From a virus: a DNA stretch of 64,000 bases. The position numbers and the translations under genes are program-made. Every line of letters starts with the position of its first letter. Within the stretch, counting starts at the first letter, position 1. Of this stretch, positions 3,008 to 43,901 are shown piece by piece. A model generated the notes under the pieces. That model did not search any database, had not been told where the DNA came from, and saw only the letters and a program-made list of their open reading frames with translations. The DNA lies in the IMG/VR virus record IMGVR_UViG_3300021963_000055, positions 40,878-104,877 of that record; one strand, written 5' to 3'.

Positions 3008-3020
3008 ACTATTATTTATG
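3008..3020 (-). promoter_or_regulatory. Late-promoter-like box upstream of gp22
   Basis: The minus strand reads CATAAATAATAG, a one-base variant of the T4 late octamer, 34-46 nt upstream of the gp22 start. The spacing resembles that of other structural genes in the window. Confidence 0.5.
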
Positions 3021-3669
3021 AAATTTTGATATTACGGAGAAAACTTTCAAAAACTTGTAGTTTTCTTTCAGTTAAACTATTAGAAGATGCGTTATTAATT
3101 GCTCGTCTGTAACTATTAATTACCTTTTCTTCTAACATACCATTGTTCCAAATCCACTCTTTGCCTTCCATAATGCCTTGTACAAAAGCATCTGGAGCAG
3201 AAGGATCCGCAACAATGTCTGCAGCAGTAGATAACATAAAGTCATCTTTCACTACATTTACTCCATTCCTTTCCTCAATAGATCCAATACCTCTTGAGGA
3301 AACTCCGAGTGTAACTCCAGACTCAAGGAGAGACTTAGCGATTTTACCCATAGGAGTTTCTAGAATTTGAGCTTTCCCAATGAAGTTTGTTCCTTCTGCA
3401 CGGAGAGAAACAATCTTATGGGATACTCGATCTAGATTGATTGTTGGGCTATCTGGATGTCCCAGTTCACCTAGAGCACGACCCTTGGCAACGTAGTTCT
3501 CATTGTATGAGCCTACCTCTCTATTGAGAGTTTCCATGGGATACATTCGACCATTGCGGTTCTTTAGTTCCGCTTGAAGAAATACTCCTTCAATATATAG
3601 GTTCTTTTTACCACCTCTTTCTTCGGTGATAACTTTAATGTTTTCTATAGTTTCTGTGATTAGTTTCAT
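3016..3669 (-). CDS. 21: Prohead maturation protease gp21
   Basis: 217-residue serine protease of the T4 gp21 family (peptidase U9/S-type assemblin fold) that matures the prohead by cutting after L/I-x-E. Catalytic candidates are visible: His71 in the 'ELGHPDSP' motif and Ser124/Ser125 in 'LGVSSRG', with 'RMYP' upstream as in other prohead proteases. It overlaps the preceding small core protein by 4 nt. Its likely substrates in this window are gp22, gp23 and the capsid-targeted protein encoded at 41006-41416. Confidence 0.95.
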   Translation of the reverse strand: MKLITETIENIKVITEERGGKKNLYIEGVFLQAELKNRNGRMYPMETLNREVGSYNENYVAKGRALGELGHPDSPTINLDRVSHKIVSLRAEGTNFIGKAQILETPMGKIAKSLLESGVTLGVSSRGIGSIEERNGVNVVKDDFMLSTAADIVADPSAPDAFVQGIMEGKEWIWNNGMLEEKVINSYRRAINNASSNSLTERKLQVFESFLRNIKIS

Positions 3670-33100: not shown

Positions 33101-34073
33101 CCTCTGCTGTAATAGGTCCAACATATCCAAATCCTTTATTTGCAATTTTAACTCCATCTACAGCAATTCCTCCAGATGAAGTCATTTTGGTGACAATCAT
33201 CTCTGCTGTTTTTGTAGTAGTTAATGTTAACGGATTTACGGATCCAGTTCCAGATCCAATTATTTTAATTATTGGAGGAGATAGTAATTCATTATTAATT
33301 TTTTCGTAATAATATCCAGAACCACTATTTACAACTTGAAAGGAACTTATATCGCCAGAATAATTTAAAATATTAATATATGCTCCAAATCCACTTGGAT
33401 TCAATTTTAATTTTACTCGTTTTTCATTAAATAAAATTCTAAACAATAATTTGTGAGAATTTTCGGTTCCTTTAGAACGATAAAAAGAATTAATATTTTT
33501 TAAAAATGATACTATATTTAATTCGGGAGTTAATACTTCTGGAAGAGTTGGCGAAATTTCGGATTTAATTCTATTAAAAAATTCAATTGTAAATTGATAT
33601 GAAATATTGTATACTAATGTGCCAGATGCATAAGATTTTGCATCTCCTCCGTTTGTGTATACAATATTTGTAGAAGGAATTTTTTCTAATGTAAATGCGC
33701 CTGTAGATCGAACGCAATTTAAAAATTGCTGTTTAGTTTTTGTTTTGTAAAATATTATTTCGTCTTCGATTTGAATATAACCATTTGAATCAGGAAATCC
33801 ATCAGTGCTGGCAACAGTAAGGGTAGTTTCAGTTGCAGATATTGAAGAAGAAATACTAGTATACTCTTTTAACTTACTAATAGAGTAATGGCCAATGTTA
33901 TAATATTCAATTAAATTTTCAACAATATCCAAAGAATTATATTTAACTTCCTGGGATTCATAGTAAGAAGTTAAAAATGATATAAATTTTGGATTAGATT
34001 CCCTTACAAATGACGGAAGTTGCTTTTCAATTAATACTGAAGTATTAATAATTTTTTCGTCTAAATTTGTCAT
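24114..34073 (-). CDS. Giant baseplate/tail-fibre protein (gp7-like N-terminus), 3319 residues
   Basis: The largest gene of the window, very AT-rich. The N-terminus ('VLIEKQLPSFVRESNPKFIS', 'NSFYRSKGTENSHKLLFRILF') is typical of the cyanophage protein at the gp7 position; T4 gp7 is 1032 residues. Residues about 1230-2850 are a long array of modules built on 'FNG-x-x-T-x-F-x-L', then 'V-x-x-NG-x-x-Q-x-P' and 'DY-x-x-x-G-x-x-I-x-F', typical of elongated tail fibres. Three of them (27560-29070) are close copies with 'VTNRFTQ'. Both ends carry GxGY glycine modules and 'EIIxY..L.C.RS' motifs. It overlaps gp6 by 4 nt. Likely a long baseplate-anchored fibre for host contact. Confidence 0.85.
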   Translation of the reverse strand: MTNLDEKIINTSVLIEKQLPSFVRESNPKFISFLTSYYESQEVKYNSLDIVENLIEYYNIGHYSISKLKEYTSISSSISATETTLTVASTDGFPDSNGYIQIEDEIIFYKTKTKQQFLNCVRSTGAFTLEKIPSTNIVYTNGGDAKSYASGTLVYNISYQFTIEFFNRIKSEISPTLPEVLTPELNIVSFLKNINSFYRSKGTENSHKLLFRILFNEKRVKLKLNPSGFGAYINILNYSGDISSFQVVNSGSGYYYEKINNELLSPPIIKIIGSGTGSVNPLTLTTTKTAEMIVTKMTSSGGIAVDGVKIANKGFGYVGPITAEVRERSFDPDQIVNCIDSNNNIIGSGKVYSWSDSSRELILYQISGYFTSNSRIVGIGGESPRARIAAAYLTETNKQGNPSIEIISIDPKIERPKENVIKGSSANFYERRIIRCELISGAENLDNVKLIELVQSRDLSYKIPGISLQISEIQNLENNLYEFEIDSNLNYKKLFLPPSTIATQTSTVTSNSLSSISTIDAKNFPQKSGKLYINGRVIEYSTRTNTQFLNCRIISGTSPLTISNSTAIYLYGRTCLTSGNVNYFLNGYLNGDRTKSPIIFRMLALPSDITVTDGGALYTSSIFKFNESTTNSILKSKSYNFGSIDEVIIENPGFNYRTNDKLKVDNSFTYGTGFSAYVAQVYGVNISSYNFVTEFGNSYIEINTTINHNLQTNDLLIFDNPLLLKQKVFSVRSSTKFLIPKPKQFSSLIQTLNYTTTSKTAMGGIVKINISSKGNNYKKLPEVIGVETTSGYGALMQLNSSNIGKISAINCQSVTGELIGDRKKQFPIKFSSTAKIKNNFQIASIEVISGGVNYRPTDKIKINGIIDNNYKFKIDTSCGIITNITVINGGSNLNYIPTVTIESEYGVGVELKVNLSRKLIFANDELKIGSFVNPTAICKVINFDVPSSTIEFEKISGTVNNNDLIYLPDGSLYGNIFSIKTASAHAKTSTNVSFPYKFLDNYGFLNDTTQKIHDSNYYQDWSYSIASSKNTLDWKNDVIKNTHPTGFKLFGKNLIHNQTALFKNEQDIFNSSVIFKATLLNLLDLNLKLSDCKTQKISISDVSLFAVGQFIYGNLSGAFGIIQSFSENYIEVLILKQTKFIVGDFIFEVSKEFAATGANQTDYAFVFYSGILQKPIDSYYVSNDNLIFNFALNPTDNIVAHKLTTNFEVLNFVLEGNKLNLLKGRQKFNPQFAERLLISIDGVVQEPTFTVSENVVTFNSIISPESNIFVLYHQNLKVLTFNGSGFNYTLNYTPSDTCNLLIFANSVFQSELVTDFTIFGNQISLSSSVNASDIFGWYIDESVACYLDNINTSQPNKITQIYDCDVHKLNCYIESNAIKTPKSLYQTTKDLLDGTVYTDPDNTTVYGYDTRFTYSNPEYSTSYVEVLNEIKFNGTLTTFALKYADGISYTPINGKNNLIVYVNNTILDSSQYTLSGSNITFNQVYPTGTKCTIVDFISKYLSNTTTSSKGADLDRLNVIQNGTRKTFNLSDRGVPHYVKNLEDIFVIKNGNLIKPDSQSHTVFANKITFNLAPTSTDNIKLAYFNRQLSPQKTKNVLIDPFICFNGVRATFPITLDGILFAPITEHHVIVIRNGVYQKPVTDYIIVGSNITFTTTPLYGEIISMYYAYDGLNQNFEFDTFKKYNGIETKFSLTKNYISINPATSSNLQVIRNGAYQYPGIDYTMAGTSNYNYINFATAPTTDDDIVITAFMGDDLIDITNRFTQENTTSLRYTSQSPIVNTDIFLIYLNGVLQDNTAWNFNTTTNILSFSGSFVSLALDKVSILAFKSQKRFLDQITPERLDSFKEFNGVNKTFALTKNYIKTPILSNTNLQIFKNGKYLHSDVYDVKTSNNSKFIVGQNSAQYLELETAPISTDKFDIRNIVNDDIIDVTNRFSQSSPTQLQYTSTSPTIDTNTFLIYKDTAQGRILLSNETWSFSSNVLTFIQPTNLNIDNLKIIAFKTSKPKIDSFNVIQLDNFKNFNSVNVKFALTKNYLNVTNDSTFHVFRNGVYQYENVDYSIVGPDNSPSIEFLTAPNSTEAVHIVSYPNSDIVDVTNRFTQLSSNSLQYTSLTPIIDTDVFLIYVNGIIQISSWNYNSSTSILTFDENVNLSTDKVKIFGFISAKVQLDSFTVQNNISTYTLQKNNVNIPDNLTKASDLIVVIDGVVQIPEISYTASNNEITLLNQNLNINSTVLIYKLGVNYGTVLLDPIDDNFTKTTFKLQFNYKTHVIFGINSLTVIKNGITLNPITDYANLTGYITFANPILESDAIEIYVNEYQLCTNLIPITTNLPRAQDLILDINDSILVPSVNYTINGNILRLNNVINYVNYRSKVFQISSYNVDVLDYINDNYSKNTYKLSSNYVYYDNTISGNIFVYKNDTLLIPGVDYNYGIGYITFTSNISSSDIITIANYKYNLLKNNTIINTLLPATSENLILLVNGVIQKTSTYNCNSAIIELTNAHELFNIRDYSLSPVHIYQVGTSATDTIIVDYLNDDFSKSTYKLQKNYGSFNPPANSDVFVLRNGVSQNPGEDFIVGNGYITFTTNITQDDEIYIAYRHGTTEIPITNISGTSITLGTAISTNERANLVLHINGVPQFYGQNFTISGNTVTLLSNTEIDSIFAIKYPSIHFLNDPDDCPNGTRKKFRLFYNEQNLISSDIIQDADILISVNGVIQYPGVQYTISPNRGIVEFATPPQFTDEIFRIRMYGNQVVNLTSVSNSNTVYDIDNLSTTENLVVFSNNSWKFNELNEYTYNTGYRITLTSPNTSAYIFGIKFAGVFHLLDQTNTPFNGVNTKFNLFLNEDNFMPPGTVSVDSVASESSLIVTKNGKFLEAGVDYTLQGDIKSQIEFNSPLISTDIVSVKCVGSFNKLNTILVTSATNILEMSSGIPVSTLTRNGILMPILEQIVMTRTGPVQMTNSGVAAKFGPYYPNAIIERPRSHENQILVIKDGNIQSPLYDYYINNDKIIFTNTVAAGSKVVILDFRGTRLDVNVNSRSYQINVGDELHIDGESNPRVVTDILSPTLLKTTSYIGEKPSGFIGSASTTNGKVTSISISNGGKGYKNPTILRTLGTGFGAKITTNINAIKGGTIETPVQIQYPGYNQYGPQIVVPTTYAYSYKQRPLSTSNIKIGTKLTSTINSTSEIIPVANAQNFEQSEIRVEIKSSTGSGATFRPFISNGRIKKIDVLTQGIGYDDRDVEVIVIGGGGSGCVPEVILDSMGRVTSVIVRNSGEGYDTFRAIIDREIIEYTYILSNQLVGCTRSQSPTTHIQNSIVYYDKFI
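27560..29070 (-). repeat. Three tandem ~165-residue modules inside the giant tail protein
   Basis: Three consecutive coding units, each opening with 'FKxFNxVxxxFALTKNY' (or FKKYNGIETKFSLTKNY) and carrying 'DI(I/V)D(V/I)TNRF(T/S)Q', 'SLxYTS.(S/T)P' and 'DVFLIYxNG'. The VTNRF-type motif falls near 27795, 28280 and 28805, a spacing of about 485-525 nt. They are the most similar members of a longer, more diverged array. Confidence 0.8.
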
Positions 34074-36277
34074 GAGCAGGTATCTGGATTTATTGGAGTG
34101 AAGTCTTCGATATTTGGATCAAGTGGAGGACATCCTAATGTAGCAAGTTGCTGTAATGTTTGAGTATCAGCATAACCTTGAGTAATAATTTTATCATATA
34201 ATTTTTGACAGTCTGTAATTGCTGTAGTTGGAGGAATAATAACTTGAGAACCGTCTGGATTTGTAGTTATAGAAGTTCCATCATCTTCAATAACTGTAAT
34301 ACTTCCATCAGCATTTCTTGTTGCACTTCCTAAAATATCTGTGACTGGTGAAATACCAAACGGATCTCCAGTGACAGGAAAAGCACTAGTAGAACTAGTA
34401 GCAGTTGGTCTAGGCAATTCAGTTTCTGGATTTAAATCATTATTTGTATAATCTTTTATATCAATTGGGTTTGTTGCGAACAATTCGGCGTTTGGATATG
34501 TATCCGAACCCGTTGTAATATCAGGACTTTCTGGTATTACGTAAATATTTATTGGATCATCTTGACAAGAAGCTATAGTAAATTCTACTTCTCCTGTTTC
34601 ATAATTAACACTACCAACTTTAGCAATTACTCTTTCCTTTAAAGTTAAAAGATAAATATCAGAATTATTTCTAGGTGAACAATCATTAACATTATAACCA
34701 GCAAATTTATTGCTAAATGCAGCTAAGAAAAGAGGTTCATTATAACCTTTAACACAAAAAGCGTCACTGATCATTGTGTATTTGTCTTGAACATTATTTT
34801 TAATTTTAGAATAAAATTTTAATTTATATCTATAATATAAATTATTGTATAATTCTACAATTCTTTTAAAAATTGGTTTTATTACGACAAATTTTATAGA
34901 TGAATCTAAATCACGAATTTGGCAAATTAATTTGGAAGATGAAAATACTCCATTAAAATTTTTAAAATCATCATCTAAATTATATTTTGCAACTTCTTGA
35001 TTAATTAATTCACTAAGTTTTCCAGAATCTTTTTTTGTTCTATTTTTTTCGTAAATTATATTAATTGCCATTAAAATATAGAATGGATTTGCATCTTCAA
35101 TAATTGGAGTTATAGATCCTACAGTATAGGTTTTAATTTCATCTGCAATTCTTTTCTTTTCAGCCGTAGAAATTTTAGTCCCTACTTTTGGTTTAATTGA
35201 AATAAAAACTTTACCATATTCGGGAGGAGATTTAGTTTCTCCTCCGACAACTCGCACTAAATCTGCATTTGCGTAAATATTTTGCAAGATACTTTCATAA
35301 TCATCATTAACTACTGCTCTTTGCTGTGCGGCATAATATCTTGGAGCCCTGTATTTAATTGATTTTATAGGTTCAAACTCAGCCCCACCATCAGTTTTTG
35401 TTGATATTGCTAATGGAGTTACATTTACATTACCAATTACAGATTCTCCACTAGTATTGGATCCTTTTACTGTGCCAACAAATTTTAATTGTGAGGTATT
35501 AATAGAATTTGCAGCAGAACCATTAGTAATTACATAACTTATGATAATGACTTCTCCATTCTGTAATTTTCTTCCTATGACATCATCTCCAAAAATTACT
35601 TCATATTTCTGATCTTGAACTTCTTCTACAAAGAAAATTTTATCTGAAGAAGATACTCCAACAATACTAGTTCTTTTCTCATATTCTACTTCTAAATTAG
35701 TTGCTGGATCGGAAATTACAGAAACTTTAATTGAATTTGCATCTATGAAGTTATTTGGAATAAAAAATCTTTGATTTTCGTTGCTATCATCTACAGTATA
35801 TCTAATTAAAAACTGTTGCCCTTCCTGAACAGTAATATTTGAAAATGTTACTGTAGAATTACCTTGGACATTTTCAACAAGTTTATCTCTAGTAATATAA
35901 GTGTAAGTTTTATTATTTTCAGTAACTGAAAATAATGGACCTGGTTCAATTACAACACTTTGGTATTGCGAAACATTATTTACTGTAATATCAAAAACAG
36001 CAGTGGATGATGTATAAGAATTTGGTGTATATCCTAACTTTTTTGCATGGGAAACTACATTATCTCTAAGAACAGCAGTATCTAAATTTAATTCATTCGC
36101 CGCCATATTGATATTATATGACGAATACATGCTATTATACGCCAAAATATCCATTAACATAGACAGATTAGATCCTTCAAAATCGTAATCTTTAAAATCT
36201 GTCTTTGTTTTGATGTAATTTTTAATAGATTCTCTGATTTGAGAAAATTCTAAAGCAGAGATAGTAGGTAGTTCCAT
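34070..36277 (-). CDS. 6: Baseplate wedge protein gp6
   Basis: 735 residues; T4 gp6 is 660. N-terminal 'ISALEFSQIRESIKNYIKTKTDFKDYDFEGSN' split over two helices, 'ILAYNSMYSSYNINMAANE' and 'DNVVSHAKKLGYTPNS' are diagnostic of the gp6/baseplate J family, and the 'RAPRYYAAQQRAVVNDDYE' segment near residue 315 is its core motif. gp6 forms the iris ring joining baseplate wedges and contacts gp25, encoded directly upstream. The last 100 residues (Ser/Thr/Pro/Asp-rich) are an extension not present in T4. Confidence 0.95.
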   Translation of the reverse strand: MELPTISALEFSQIRESIKNYIKTKTDFKDYDFEGSNLSMLMDILAYNSMYSSYNINMAANELNLDTAVLRDNVVSHAKKLGYTPNSYTSSTAVFDITVNNVSQYQSVVIEPGPLFSVTENNKTYTYITRDKLVENVQGNSTVTFSNITVQEGQQFLIRYTVDDSNENQRFFIPNNFIDANSIKVSVISDPATNLEVEYEKRTSIVGVSSSDKIFFVEEVQDQKYEVIFGDDVIGRKLQNGEVIIISYVITNGSAANSINTSQLKFVGTVKGSNTSGESVIGNVNVTPLAISTKTDGGAEFEPIKSIKYRAPRYYAAQQRAVVNDDYESILQNIYANADLVRVVGGETKSPPEYGKVFISIKPKVGTKISTAEKKRIADEIKTYTVGSITPIIEDANPFYILMAINIIYEKNRTKKDSGKLSELINQEVAKYNLDDDFKNFNGVFSSSKLICQIRDLDSSIKFVVIKPIFKRIVELYNNLYYRYKLKFYSKIKNNVQDKYTMISDAFCVKGYNEPLFLAAFSNKFAGYNVNDCSPRNNSDIYLLTLKERVIAKVGSVNYETGEVEFTIASCQDDPINIYVIPESPDITTGSDTYPNAELFATNPIDIKDYTNNDLNPETELPRPTATSSTSAFPVTGDPFGISPVTDILGSATRNADGSITVIEDDGTSITTNPDGSQVIIPPTTAITDCQKLYDKIITQGYADTQTLQQLATLGCPPLDPNIEDFTPINPDTCS

Positions 36278-36280
36278 TTA

Positions 36281-36697
36281 CTAGCTTTCTCTTACGAGGA
36301 TAAAATCTACGGTTTGTAATATTGGAGGCAATCCAACTATAAAATATTCAATACTTACATCAAACTCATTTGAATCGTCCTCAACATTTACTGTAATATT
36401 TTTTAATGTTATTCTAGATTCATATAATTGAAGGACATTTTCAATTTCTTCAATCAAAGAATTAGCGGAAAAAGTTGTTGTCAATTCAAACAAATATCCA
36501 GTAGTATTGGTTCCTACATTTGGATTGAAAAGACGTTCTCCTAATTTAGTTAAAACTAAATTTTTAACAGATTGCTTGATCGCTTCTTCATTTTTTAATA
36601 TAACAACGTCTTTTGTAATTGGATTTAGGCCAAAATTTAAACTAATGTCTTTAAATGACCTAGATATTTTGCCTAATTCTTCCGAGACAGTAGACAT
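36281..36697 (-). CDS. 25: Baseplate wedge protein gp25
   Basis: 138 residues (T4 gp25 is 132). Shows the lysozyme-like wedge fold signature 'DVVILKNEEAIKQSVKNLVLTKLGERLFNPNVG' (spread over residues 28-61) including the EPR-like core region, and a final strand 'FDVSIEYFIVGLPPILQTVDFIL'. It bridges gp6 and the sheath initiator. Its stop is 3 nt from gp6, so the two are co-transcribed. Confidence 0.94.
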   Translation of the reverse strand: MSTVSEELGKISRSFKDISLNFGLNPITKDVVILKNEEAIKQSVKNLVLTKLGERLFNPNVGTNTTGYLFELTTTFSANSLIEEIENVLQLYESRITLKNITVNVEDDSNEFDVSIEYFIVGLPPILQTVDFILVRES

Positions 36698-40769: not shown

Positions 40770-40952
40770 TTAGTCTCCTACTTTATGTATGCGAATTCCT
40801 GGAGTATCATGATGATCAAAGTACTCAAACTCTAAAGTATCTCCCTCTTGCCATTGCATCTCATCGAGGATCTCATCAGGAAATGTAATGAAGTACTCAC
40901 CAGATTTGTCATCATATTGCACTTCAGTTGTAAACGAAGAAAGACTAGACAT
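40770..40952 (-). CDS. AbrB/MazE-like small protein
   Basis: 60 residues. 'TTEVQYDDKSGEYFITFPDE' followed by 'ILDEMQWQEGDTLEFEYFD' has the strand, 'P.e.l..l.w.eGD.l' turn and strand pattern of the SpoVT/AbrB swapped-hairpin DNA-binding domain. It is transcribed divergently from the plus-strand gene at 41006 across a 53-nt spacer, so it could regulate that pair. DNA binding is inferred, not shown. Confidence 0.72.
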   Translation of the reverse strand: MSSLSSFTTEVQYDDKSGEYFITFPDEILDEMQWQEGDTLEFEYFDHHDTPGIRIHKVGD

Positions 40953-40986: not shown

Positions 40987-40993
40987 ATAAATA
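40987..40993 (+). promoter_or_regulatory. Late-promoter-like box for the plus-strand gene
   Basis: ATAAATA within an AT palindrome (AAATATTT) in the divergent 53-nt spacer, 13 nt before the ATG at 41006. The palindrome also presents an AT-rich face to the minus-strand gene. The distance is shorter than for other late genes, so support is modest. Confidence 0.35.
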
Positions 40994-41005: not shown

Positions 41006-41416
41006 ATGAAAACATACTCCGAATTCATTACAGAAGCTAAAAGAATTAAGATGACAAGATATTATCATGGGACATCATCATCTTCTGCAGATAGCATTCA
41101 TAAGTCAGGGTTTAAAGGCTCTGAAGTACATGCATCAACATCTGCTAGAACTGCAGATGCTTTTGGTAAGAGGTATGGTAAGGATACTAGAACTCTTTCA
41201 ATTCGTGTCCCTTCAAAATCAAAGCATGTAGAAAAAACAAAGGGTCAGCAAGGTATTGATGCTTGGGGAAGAAGACATCACTCTGCTATAATGAGTCCAG
41301 AGTATGCTTCTAAACACATTACAAAATCACCAACAATTCCTGCACCTAAGGTTCCAAAGAAGTATGCACATCTGAGTCCTTTTAAAAAACGAACTAAAAC
41401 TCAAATAAAAAAATAA
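41006..41416 (+). CDS. Putative capsid-targeted mini ADP-ribosyltransferase-like protein
   Basis: 136 residues, the only supported plus-strand gene. The N-terminus MKTYSEFITEA is almost identical to the T4 capsid-targeting sequence of internal proteins and Alt (MKTYQEFIAEA), and contains a gp21 cleavage motif (I8-T9-E10, then A11). After it, 'YYHGTSSSSADSIHKSGF' and 'ASTSARTADAFGKRYG' resemble the first two conserved segments of ADP-ribosyltransferase folds (His/Arg motif, then STS). The C-terminal third is Lys/Pro-rich and unstructured. Mature protein (about 126 residues) is very basic, as T4 internal proteins are. A catalytic Glu is not certain, so activity is inferred. It is followed by its own terminator. 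Confidence 0.75.
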   Translation: MKTYSEFITEAKRIKMTRYYHGTSSSSADSIHKSGFKGSEVHASTSARTADAFGKRYGKDTRTLSIRVPSKSKHVEKTKGQQGIDAWGRRHHSAIMSPEYASKHITKSPTIPAPKVPKKYAHLSPFKKRTKTQIKK

Positions 41417-41424
41417 ATTATTTT

Positions 41425-41459
41425 TTCCGAGGATCTAAACGGTTCTCGGAATTTTTTTT
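41425..41459 (+). terminator. Rho-independent terminator of the plus-strand gene
   Basis: Stem TTCCGAG/CTCGGAA (41425-41431, 41445-41451) with a 13-nt loop, followed by eight T. It begins 9 nt after the stop codon. The strand between here and 41557 holds another hairpin (GCCCTC/GAGGGC near 41493-41513) and no gene. Confidence 0.8.
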
Positions 41460-41935: not shown

Positions 41936-42140
41936 GATATTTTGGAAATTTTTTTTTATTTAAATCACTATATCTAGGTCGATCTAGGAATGGTATAGCT
42001 TAGGGTAGTTAAGGCTTTTTGTACGGGTACGGGGGGCGGCGACCCATAAGGGCCGCTTATACTGCCCCTGCCCACTGATAAGCACTGCTGATGGATCAGA
42101 TCTGCTGATGGGTGGGGGAGGCTGGCTCCCCCTCTGCTTA
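41936..42140 (-). other. Gene-free GC-rich boundary segment
   Basis: 205 nt between the HNH gene and the first gene of the GC-rich island. It holds repeated words (CTGATAAGCA, and CTGCTGATGG twice near 42085-42110) and a strong hairpin GGGGGAG/CTCCCCC (42114-42132) just past the stop of the 55-residue gene, probably its terminator. No supported coding frame. Confidence 0.5.
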
Positions 42141-42308
42141 TCAGTCCCAGAGCAGGTTGGCGATGGCTTCCAGTCGCTGCTGGCGGGTGGCCAGCTCGGC
42201 TTCGATGGCCTCGGCTTCCTGTTCGGTAGGGTTGCCCTCATCGAGCCATTCCATCAGCTGGAAGCTGCTCAGGTCGTCGAAAGCGGTGGCGATGGTTGCG
42301 TCGAGCAT
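42141..42308 (-). CDS. Small acidic protein in GC-rich island
   Basis: 55 residues: 'MLDATIATAFDDLSSFQLME', 'WLDEGNPTEQEAEAIEAELA', 'TRQQRLEAIANLLWD'. Glu/Ala-rich helical protein. Codons are strongly GC-ending (GCC, CTG, GAC), unlike the late phage genes and unlike the 44-64 kb genes. A TAGACT -10-like box precedes it (42335-42340). Not recognised. Confidence 0.65.
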   Translation of the reverse strand: MLDATIATAFDDLSSFQLMEWLDEGNPTEQEAEAIEAELATRQQRLEAIANLLWD

Positions 42309-42382
42309 GGTTGGCTCCGTTGGTTTGCTTGATCAGTCTACCATGGATGGGGCCAGCTTGTGGCCAGCCCCGTTACAAAGGT

Positions 42383-42697
42383 TTACACAGGGCTGGGGCG
42401 ATCCTGGCTCCAGCGAACTAGCCTGCGGTTGCTGGCCTTGCTGTAGACTCGGTTGCCAATGGTTCGGCCATCGGCCAGCGTGATCACGCTGCGGCCAGCG
42501 GCGTCAGCAGCAGCCTGCAGAGCCTGGCGTCCCAGCTTGCGCTCCTCCTTGAGAGCAGTCTCACTGGTGGCCAGATCAAACAGCCACTGTGCCCGATGGC
42601 GGCCAACGATGACGCCATGGCGGATGGTGACCTTGGCAACAGCAACAGCCACTGCGGTGGGGATGCTGGTGCGGGTGAGGCGGTCAGAGCGGGTCAT
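42383..42697 (-). CDS. Small basic protein of unknown function, GC-rich island
   Basis: 104 residues, 'MTRSDRLTRTSIPTAVAVAV' then 'KVTIRHGVIVGRHRAQWLFD' and 'LATSETALKEERKLGRQALQ'. Arg/Ala-rich with GC-ending codons; no membrane or catalytic motif recognised. A sigma70-type promoter lies 44 nt upstream, and a hairpin with the GGTAGACT box follows its stop, so it is a single-gene unit. Confidence 0.7.
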   Translation of the reverse strand: MTRSDRLTRTSIPTAVAVAVAKVTIRHGVIVGRHRAQWLFDLATSETALKEERKLGRQALQAAADAAGRSVITLADGRTIGNRVYSKASNRRLVRWSQDRPSPV

Positions 42698-42740
42698 GGT
42701 CTCAGGTGGTTGTGGGGGCTTCTCTCGCCCCCGTGTTCAA

Positions 42741-42768
42741 ATTATAGGGCATGGGTGGGGGCTGTCGA
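42741..42768 (-). promoter_or_regulatory. Sigma70-type promoter upstream of the 104-residue gene
   Basis: Minus strand TCGACA (42768-42763), 16-nt spacer, TATAAT (42746-42741), 44 nt before the ATG at 42697. It lies in the gap after the gp88-family gene. Confidence 0.65.
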
Positions 42769-42802
42769 TGCCCCAGACCCGAACTGTTACAAACCGAAAT
42801 AA

Positions 42803-43561
42803 TTATACTTTAGCGGCCAGAATAGCCTGGCGTTCCTTCCTGTAACCGCTGAACTTACCAGCACGGCGGCGAGCATGGACAGCTTTGCCATAGGTTGAAC
42901 CTTTAGGCTGTGTTGAGTGTACCAACAGTGCAAACGGTTTGTCACCAAAACAGTGCGAGTCGTCGTGATCAACCTCTAGCCCAATCGCTTCAGCTTCTTC
43001 ATCGTTATGCACAACTTTACTGTAGCGAGTGAACACACCTGCGTCGATATAGTGGTCGAATTTGCCACCATAACTTGCCGTCATGAAGAAGTTAGAGGGC
43101 AACTCCAAACCTACAAACAGTGGCAGGTTTTTGCTGTAGCAGTAGAACTTGAGATCAGGGTTCAGCTTTGCCACTGTGATCCAGGCATCCAGATAGGCAC
43201 CCGAGAAGAAATCACCAGACTCGTGAATCCTGACGAGTTTGCTATTCTTCTTGCGAGCATTCTGCAGGCTGTTGTTGATCAGTTCGGCTGCAGTGTTGGT
43301 TTGGATCGCCTCAACAACCAGCTGCAGATTGCGAGCCCGAGCATAGAAAGGGCCATCGTATTGTGCTTCACTAGTTGCAGCAAAACACCTAAATTGTGTT
43401 TGAGGGCCATCCTGAACTTTACGCTTGCCGTCTTCATTAACAACAGCAAACGAGAGACAGAATAGAGCGCCAGGGCAGGTTTTGCCAGCTGGCAGGCTAA
43501 AGATCAGGGTGCCCTTACCGAGCTTGGCGTTACCGTGGCTGAAGGTCAGAAGGTCAGACAT
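42803..43561 (-). CDS. Gp88-family phage protein
   Basis: 252 residues. 'LLTFSHGNAKLGKGTLIFSLPAGKTCPGA' (shown here in two parts: TFSHGNAKLGKGTLIFSLPA and GKTCPGALFC), 'RIHESGDFFSGAYLDAWITV' and 'FYCYSKNLPLFV' match the pattern of the GP88 family (first seen in mycobacteriophages), which has conserved Cys, the S/R-GDFF motif and a TIM-barrel-like layout. The biochemical role of this family is unknown to me. It is GC-rich, unlike surrounding phage genes, and is flanked by hairpin/promoter units. Confidence 0.8.
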   Translation of the reverse strand: MSDLLTFSHGNAKLGKGTLIFSLPAGKTCPGALFCLSFAVVNEDGKRKVQDGPQTQFRCFAATSEAQYDGPFYARARNLQLVVEAIQTNTAAELINNSLQNARKKNSKLVRIHESGDFFSGAYLDAWITVAKLNPDLKFYCYSKNLPLFVGLELPSNFFMTASYGGKFDHYIDAGVFTRYSKVVHNDEEAEAIGLEVDHDDSHCFGDKPFALLVHSTQPKGSTYGKAVHARRRAGKFSGYRKERQAILAAKV

Positions 43562-43587
43562 TGGTGGTTTGGGTGTGAACTGAGGTT

Positions 43588-43623
43588 AGTCTACCAGATG
43601 GGAAGGGCCAGGCTGGCTGGCCC
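43588..43623 (-). terminator. Hairpin plus -10-like box at a gene boundary in the GC-rich island
   Basis: Stem GGGCCA/TGGCCC (43605-43610, 43618-43623) just past the stop of the 88-residue gene, followed 12 nt later on the minus strand by GGTAGACT (43593-43588) upstream of the gp88-family start. The same order (CTTTGyAACrGGG hairpin, then GGTAGACT) occurs at 42335-42371 before the 55-residue gene. Confidence 0.55.
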
Positions 43624-43634
43624 TGTTGCAAAGC

Positions 43635-43901
43635 TTAATGCTGTGTCACCCAGTGGTCCATGGTCATGATCCAACCCTCACCGTGCCACGTATGGAAGCG
43701 ATCGGTTTTGAACTGCTCCCACTGGGCTTTGGTGATCAGATGGCCCTCAACCCATACCAGGGTCTGATCCTGCTCCCGCTCAGCTTGCTTGGCCCCAGCC
43801 CGCACCCGAAACATTTCGGCTGCAATGGTTCCCTGGCTGGCGTCAGGGCCGATTCCTGGGAGGTGCTCGGTGTTCAGCATTGGTCCTTTGCGACTGCTCA
43901 C
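43635..43901 (-). CDS. Small protein of unknown function, GC-rich island
   Basis: 88 residues, 'GPDASQGTIAAEMFRVRAGA', 'KQAEREQDQTLVWVEGHLIT', then 'DRFHTWHGEGWIMTMDHWVT'. Trp/His-rich C-terminus. GC-ending codons throughout. The true start could be Met8 (MLNTEHLPG) but I keep the first ATG. No family recognised. Confidence 0.65.
   Translation of the reverse strand: MSSRKGPMLNTEHLPGIGPDASQGTIAAEMFRVRAGAKQAEREQDQTLVWVEGHLITKAQWEQFKTDRFHTWHGEGWIMTMDHWVTQH

Follow-up and report, generated by a model that had tools for sequence, protein, structure and literature searches.

The packaging of ADP-ribosyltransferases (ARTs) in phage virions is an already known strategy, represented by Alt of phage T4 and by the polyvalent proteins. 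T4 Alt, an NAD+-using enzyme of about 680 aa with an R-S-E active site, is packaged in the head, processed by the prohead protease gp21 with removal of a 7-residue propeptide (PMC9026906) and injected; the Alt family is located near baseplate genes (PMC5512222). The T4 internal proteins combine small size and a basic character with high abundance (PMC9026906). Three of them, IPI, IPII and IPIII, which are not known enzymes, possess a 10-residue capsid-targeting sequence (CTS) with an L/I-x-E cut site, and their gene content varies between phages. In IPIII, targeting is determined mainly by residues 4 and 7 and processing by residues 8 and 10; gp21 cleaves after L/I-x-E, and Asp at the cut site inhibited processing (PMC9026906). 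Polyvalent proteins combine ART and GNAT domains delivered with the DNA, and one polyvalent GNAT family typically neighbours an ART in the same polypeptide (Iyer et al. 2017, PMC5512222). Frequent packaging of ARTs by myoviruses has been argued for by Iyer et al. 2022 (PMC9503650), who do not mention targeting sequences or cyanophages. In Clostridium Tpt1, a member of the Tpt1/KptA family of RNA 2′-phosphotransferases, His101-Gly102-Thr103 and Arg139 contact NAD+ (PMC6333775). The window considered here, the whole analysed stretch of 64,000 bases from a 104,877-base virus record (IMGVR_UViG_3300021963_000055), encodes at 41006–41416 of the plus strand a 136-aa protein (P0001, below the mini-ART). 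It is best explained, with a probability of about two in three, as a minimal injected ADP-ribosyltransferase that is made late, trimmed by gp21, works like Alt and is built on a stripped-down NAD+ lobe of the Tpt1 type. This reading builds on the gene, its tag and cut motif, gp21, the conservation of the protein, its relatedness to the Tpt1 NAD+ lobe and its neighbourhood, all of which are established here.

The initial annotation, made from the letters of the DNA, gave the strand and coordinates of the reading frame exactly. The encoded protein reads MKTYSEFITEA-KRIKMTRYYHGTSSSSADSIHKSGFKGSEVHASTSARTADAFGKRYGK... and ends in a lysine-rich stretch. Its close orthologues in two other contigs (L001 and L002) are 81–82% identical; the differences lie mostly at third codon positions, with a dN/dS of 0.11–0.12 (NG86), and the gene is under purifying selection. 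The predicted mature protein has 126 aa and a pI of 10.7, with 29 K/R against 7 D/E, in agreement with the mature size of about 126 residues and the basic tail expected earlier. The gene's own terminator was also recovered (hairpin 41425–41451, dG −15.2 kcal/mol, z −4.0). The late-type box fared less well: ATAAATA is present at 40987–40993, but with 21 copies in the window against 36.7 expected the motif shows no over-representation, and the boxes of head and tail genes stand farther from their start codons than this copy does, so that a late promoter is no more than plausible. Within the structural block, the mini-ART may plausibly be the sole gene on the plus strand, judging from the subset of open reading frames (ORFs) examined. 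The tag, which had been likened to those of both the internal proteins and Alt, resembles the former but not Alt with its shorter propeptide, while the proposed I-x-E site (I8, E10) and a gp21 gene in the window (3016–3669, minus strand) are both present.

The N-terminus of the mini-ART (Y4, F7, I8, E10 and A11) fits the requirements of T4 IPIII and the gp21 motif. The T4-type CTS features, namely aromatic residues at positions 4 and 7, I8 and E10, occur in a phage that also encodes the prohead protease, which is matched by Pfam Peptidase_S77 at 1.8e-34 and by the PHROG family of head maturation proteases at 2e-85. The tag pattern was found 13 times in eight related records and not once in the reversed control. 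In this virus record it occurs twice, in the mini-ART and in a 394-aa cytidylyltransferase-like protein. The latter has homologues in 550 phage records, mostly of cyanophages, and is 39% identical to protein SSM1_190 of the cyanophage S-SM1 (T4-GC190), which starts with MKKFSAFLNEA. Mass spectrometry of purified virions of S-SM1 detected T4-GC190 (Sullivan et al., PMC3037559); a related virion holds a protein with such an N-terminus, which is no proof of ART packaging. It is very likely that the mini-ART is targeted to the head, trimmed and injected.

The structure prediction and fold search proposed in the initial annotation returned an ART fold. The AlphaFold2 model has a mean pLDDT of 77, with ten-residue blocks between residues 11 and 110 at 76–91 and lower values toward the tail. 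The seven best Foldseek matches in the PDB are all Tpt1/KptA structures (probability 1.00, E 0.002–0.007, TM about 0.35–0.45 on the query), followed by noise, and the BFVD matches include proteins annotated as DarT, PARP and tRNA 2′-phosphotransferase. NCBIfam RNA 2′-phosphotransferase models match the mini-ART at 1e-5 and also 14 of 16 relatives, although its score is far below the curated cut-off (25.5 versus 239 bits, NF002014). Escherichia coli KptA is 41% identical over 44 aa, and hhalign gives 93.8% for this pair. The signature of the mini-ART, comprising HGT on strand 1, V[HY]xST (the VH/VY-x-S strand) and an invariant Arg of the Arg139 type, is that of the Tpt1 NAD+ lobe; a further block, KTxGQ...D..GR.HxS, is invariant or nearly so across relatives. 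The ART fold can be assigned with high confidence.

The mini-ART differs from Tpt1/KptA in having a capsid tag, a shorter loop before strand 2 and no N-terminal RNA lobe, nothing but the tag and a handful of residues preceding the NAD+-lobe homology. The Arg-His-Arg-Arg tetrad (Arg18, His19, Arg68, Arg121) is absent as well; three of these residues belong to the missing lobe and the fourth to the deleted loop. As the RNA lobe and all four residues are missing, the domain is, by sequence comparison, the NAD+ lobe alone and is not to be classed as Tpt1/KptA or as Alt. Kinship with Alt is rejected on the basis of the motif class: the strand-1 residue is His, the R-S-E active site and a conserved E-x-E/Q-x-E motif are absent, and family searches gave no Alt-family match. 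Of the features of Tox-ART-HYD2, the strand-1 H is present, whereas strand 2 has H in the mini-ART and Y in other relatives, and Asp85 is invariant but lies ahead of the last strand in the model, where Tox-ART-HYD2 expects D on strand 5; the mini-ART is closer to KptA than to the H-Y-D polyvalent clade. The initial annotation, with its comparison to Alt, is correct on the fold but not on the enzyme class, which is of the H type and Tpt1-like instead of R-S-E; the STS segment that it linked to ART folds is just the sequence following the second strand.

Sequence comparisons place the mini-ART in a family that had carried no label before. When viral contigs were scanned for the tag with His-Gly-Thr codons following at a distance of 6–36 bases, 55 contigs were retrieved, and a control with the last three codons permuted (GHT) found none. 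Sorted by reading the translations, 43 are ART-like with an in-frame HGT, eight represent another basic family (GLGHGTG...) and four are members of a related HYT subfamily that the pattern hit in another frame. M1, K2 and T3, an aromatic residue at position 4, F7 and E10 are kept by each of the 37 distinct relatives, positions 1–3, 7 and 10 being identical throughout. The full-length alignment comprises 16 members of the subfamily of the mini-ART, mostly 51–59% identical. Several relatives have weak ART-PolyVal matches, and the tagged relative in the cultured phage Cr30 matches the PHROG RNA 2′-phosphotransferase at 1.4e-6. No cellular homologue appeared in genome_contigs (70 pattern matches, no relatives), subfamily A was not found at full length in any cultured phage, megablast of window positions 37–46 kb against phage records gave no match, and no KptA (PF01885) is present elsewhere in this virus record. 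This partial record lacks a psbA-type gene, which two carriers of subfamily B possess.

In related contigs, the tagged ART lies in runs of tagged genes arranged in tandem with ATGA overlaps. Among those of its partners that could be identified, a tagged GNAT (Pfam Acetyltransf_7, 1e-6 to 1e-7) is the most frequent, being found in 10 of 48 records. A GNAT-specific tag pattern retrieved 26 contigs; in six, an intact tagged ART or HYT relative directly precedes the GNAT gene and overlaps it by 4 bases, and in a seventh the relative is truncated. The cassette stands beside gp25/gp6 in L002, L003, L004, L036, L040, L045, L075 and L086, and the tagged GNAT occupies the same position in the cultured Synechococcus phage B23. 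This GNAT is homologous to the GNAT within DarB-like polyvalent proteins, including the 3,764-aa DarB-like protein of phage Parlo. In the window itself, the minus strand encodes a T4-type head block (gp17, 20, 21, 22 and 23) and the baseplate proteins gp25 and gp6.

One contig (L087, IMGVR_UViG_3300032290_000659, minus strand) contains a natural fusion in which a single protein of 462 aa unites the ART with the GNAT and a third cargo domain. The first tag is retained, and the MKTFxxF part is gone at both joints, which keep protease-like sites and read ...SVSE/AKEARPP and ...LLDD/AW versus FITE/AKEARPP and FIAD/AW in the separate genes. A frameshift artefact was ruled out, the other frames being without a tag remnant. 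Such a pattern would be expected if the fusion had to be targeted a single time but cut at every joint; of the two joints, the first alone is a good cleavage candidate, because the second has Asp, inhibitory in T4 IPIII.

The inferred course of packaging, cleavage, injection and catalysis on a target would be as follows. The mini-ART would be made late in infection, its first ten residues would bind it to the prohead core and gp21 would cleave after Glu10; the basic mature enzyme would then remain with the DNA in the head and enter the host on infection. There, the NAD+ pocket, whether descended from the Tpt1/KptA NAD+ lobe or similar to it by convergence, would transfer ADP-ribose to a host macromolecule early in infection. 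That the protein modifies a host macromolecule in an NAD+-dependent manner is about as probable as the reading as a whole. By analogy with Alt (an ART) and phiKMV Rac (a GNAT), RNA polymerase may be a reasonable first candidate for the target. The mini-ART would thus share with Alt head packaging, gp21 processing, injection, NAD+ use and proximity to baseplate genes, differing from it in the H class, the size of 126 aa and the IP-type tag; unlike IPI, IPII and IPIII, it has an enzyme fold after the tag. Several points weigh against this reading: Pfam gave no match, strong similarity to Tpt1 extends over only about 45 residues, similarity over the whole lobe rests on a predicted model with a TM of about 0.45, and the catalytic Arg121 of Tpt1 was lost in the loop deletion, so that an inactive or purely DNA-binding descendant is conceivable.

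An injected ART might also serve counter-defence (against restriction, CRISPR or NAD-depleting defence) and not transcription, which would be a sub-case of the best explanation differing in the target. Enzymatic anti-CRISPR ARTs exist, an example being AcrIF11 (PMC12421852), and the partner GNAT is related to domains of DarB-like antirestriction polyvalent proteins; however, nothing in the data indicates a defence target, a PADLOC search gave no match, and this role appears rather unlikely. Slightly less likely still is a catalytically dead ART-fold internal protein that would act without NAD+ use, in head assembly or DNA condensation like IPII/IPIII or as an IPI-like binding inhibitor. The pI of 10.7 and the 29 K/R, in line with the small, basic and abundant T4 internal proteins (PMC9026906), and the missing Arg121 equivalent are consistent with it, but His21, Gly22, Thr23, Arg56 and the KTxGQ...D..GR.HxS block are invariant or nearly so across relatives of such divergence, which suggests a retained pocket. 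Very improbable is a true short KptA, an RNA 2′-phosphotransferase repairing phage or host tRNAs: the best family matches are all RNA 2′-phosphotransferases and a role of phage KptA in repairing RNA is known (PMC9503650), but with the RNA-recognition part of Tpt1 wholly missing, transfer to protein (or another nucleophile) would be expected, not removal of an RNA 2′-phosphate. A chance match, that is, an ordinary small orphan ORF with a tag-like start, is favoured by the short length only and is refuted for practical purposes by the dN/dS of 0.11, the pattern control (55 versus 0), the orthologues and the terminator.

Table 1. Features of the mini-ART locus and associated genes (window coordinates unless indicated otherwise)
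Feature	Coordinates	Strand	Evidence or remark
CTS-tagged mini-ART gene, 136 aa	41006..41416	+	open frame, orthologues, dN/dS
Capsid-targeting propeptide MKTYSEFITE, predicted gp21 cut Glu10/Ala11	41006..41035	+	key positions 4, 7, 8, 10
ART-fold domain (residues 16-105), like Tpt1/KptA NAD+ lobe	41051..41320	+	AlphaFold2, Foldseek, NCBIfam, hhalign
His21-Gly22-Thr23, equivalent to Tpt1 His101-Gly102-Thr103 (NAD+ ribose contacts)	41066..41074	+	invariant in 16 relatives, profile alignment
Arg56, equivalent to Tpt1 Arg139 (NAD+ diphosphate contact)	41171..41173	+	invariant in 16 relatives, profile alignment
Basic C-terminal tail, low model confidence	41330..41413	+	AlphaFold2 model, composition
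Intrinsic terminator, 11-bp stem and T run	41425..41459	+	folding energy
ATAAATA, possible T4-type late promoter box	40987..40993	+	not significant on its own
gp21 prohead protease, predicted processing enzyme	3016..3669	-	Pfam and PHROG
Baseplate wedge genes gp6 and gp25, conserved neighbours of tagged cargo genes in related phages	34070..36697	-	
Tagged cytidylyltransferase-like protein, 394 aa (locus L015)	G000:C1:20293-20322, outside window	-	PF01467, PHROG 395, tag MKTFRQFITEA

Other tagged proteins were noticed in the contigs. Eight loci (L041, L043, L048, L053, L061, L062, L067 and L074) encode another tagged family of about 170–195 aa, very basic, which starts GLGHGTGL(S/T)H and is not ART-like. 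In L042 (117–608, minus strand), a second, different tagged HGT protein lies beside the first and resembles another ART (YHGT ... SLTRS ... YEERIV). The tagged HYT proteins that make up subfamily C (L003:5001-5564 and relatives) measure about 185 aa, and their genes often directly precede those of subfamily A or of the GNAT. The L003 model is too poor for use (mean pLDDT 48.5), so that an ART nature is only suggested by profile similarity, which derives partly from the shared tag. The tagged protein at locus L017 (G006:C1:80628) carries a lytic transglycosylase domain of the double-psi beta-barrel kind (PF03330, 2.6e-11) and is possibly an injected cell-wall enzyme. Close to the mini-ART gene, a divergent 60-aa protein (40770–40952, minus strand) matches PHROG 661 and is weakly MazE/AbrB-like. 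A 50–62% G+C island (41984–43900) in this 34% G+C genome adjoins the ART gene and an HNH endonuclease; it contains a gene of the GP88 family (PF17338) as well as a small ORF, EQFKTDRFHTWHGEGW, which is similar to DRFTSYRFQTWHSEGW in the G+C-rich flank of L002.

Weak similarities extend to podovirus core proteins. The 1,610-aa internal virion protein of the cyanopodovirus S-CBP42 has a similar strand 1–2 segment (41% over 41 aa; a weak tblastn match to the mini-ART, E 0.5), and that of the cyanopodovirus P60 is matched, also weakly, by a subfamily-B relative (tblastn E 0.02); in contrast to the mini-ART, the segment is embedded there in a large protein. The polyvalent proteins are likewise giant, whereas the tagged ART and GNAT of the T4-like phages, for which joint delivery with the DNA is predicted, are separate genes with one fusion. 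A tentative extension, somewhat less probable than not, is that T4-like phages infecting aquatic bacteria could use a swappable cassette of capsid-tagged mini-enzymes as their injected effector set, in which the Tpt1 NAD+ lobe would have been redirected to a new host target. The Tpt1-like ARTs, GNATs, cytidylyltransferase and lytic-transglycosylase-like domain would then correspond to a polyvalent protein split into separately packaged parts. In the literature searched, which was incomplete, a stand-alone Tpt1-type NAD+ lobe of about 100 residues, delivery by an IP-type tag and a modular tagged cassette appear to be new. Since the tagged GNAT family occurs in B23 and S-CRM01 and a related tagged ART in Cr30, all of them cultured, the reading of the mini-ART as an injected enzyme is testable now. 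If it is right, injected effectors of uncultured T4-like phages could be found simply by the sequence of the tag.
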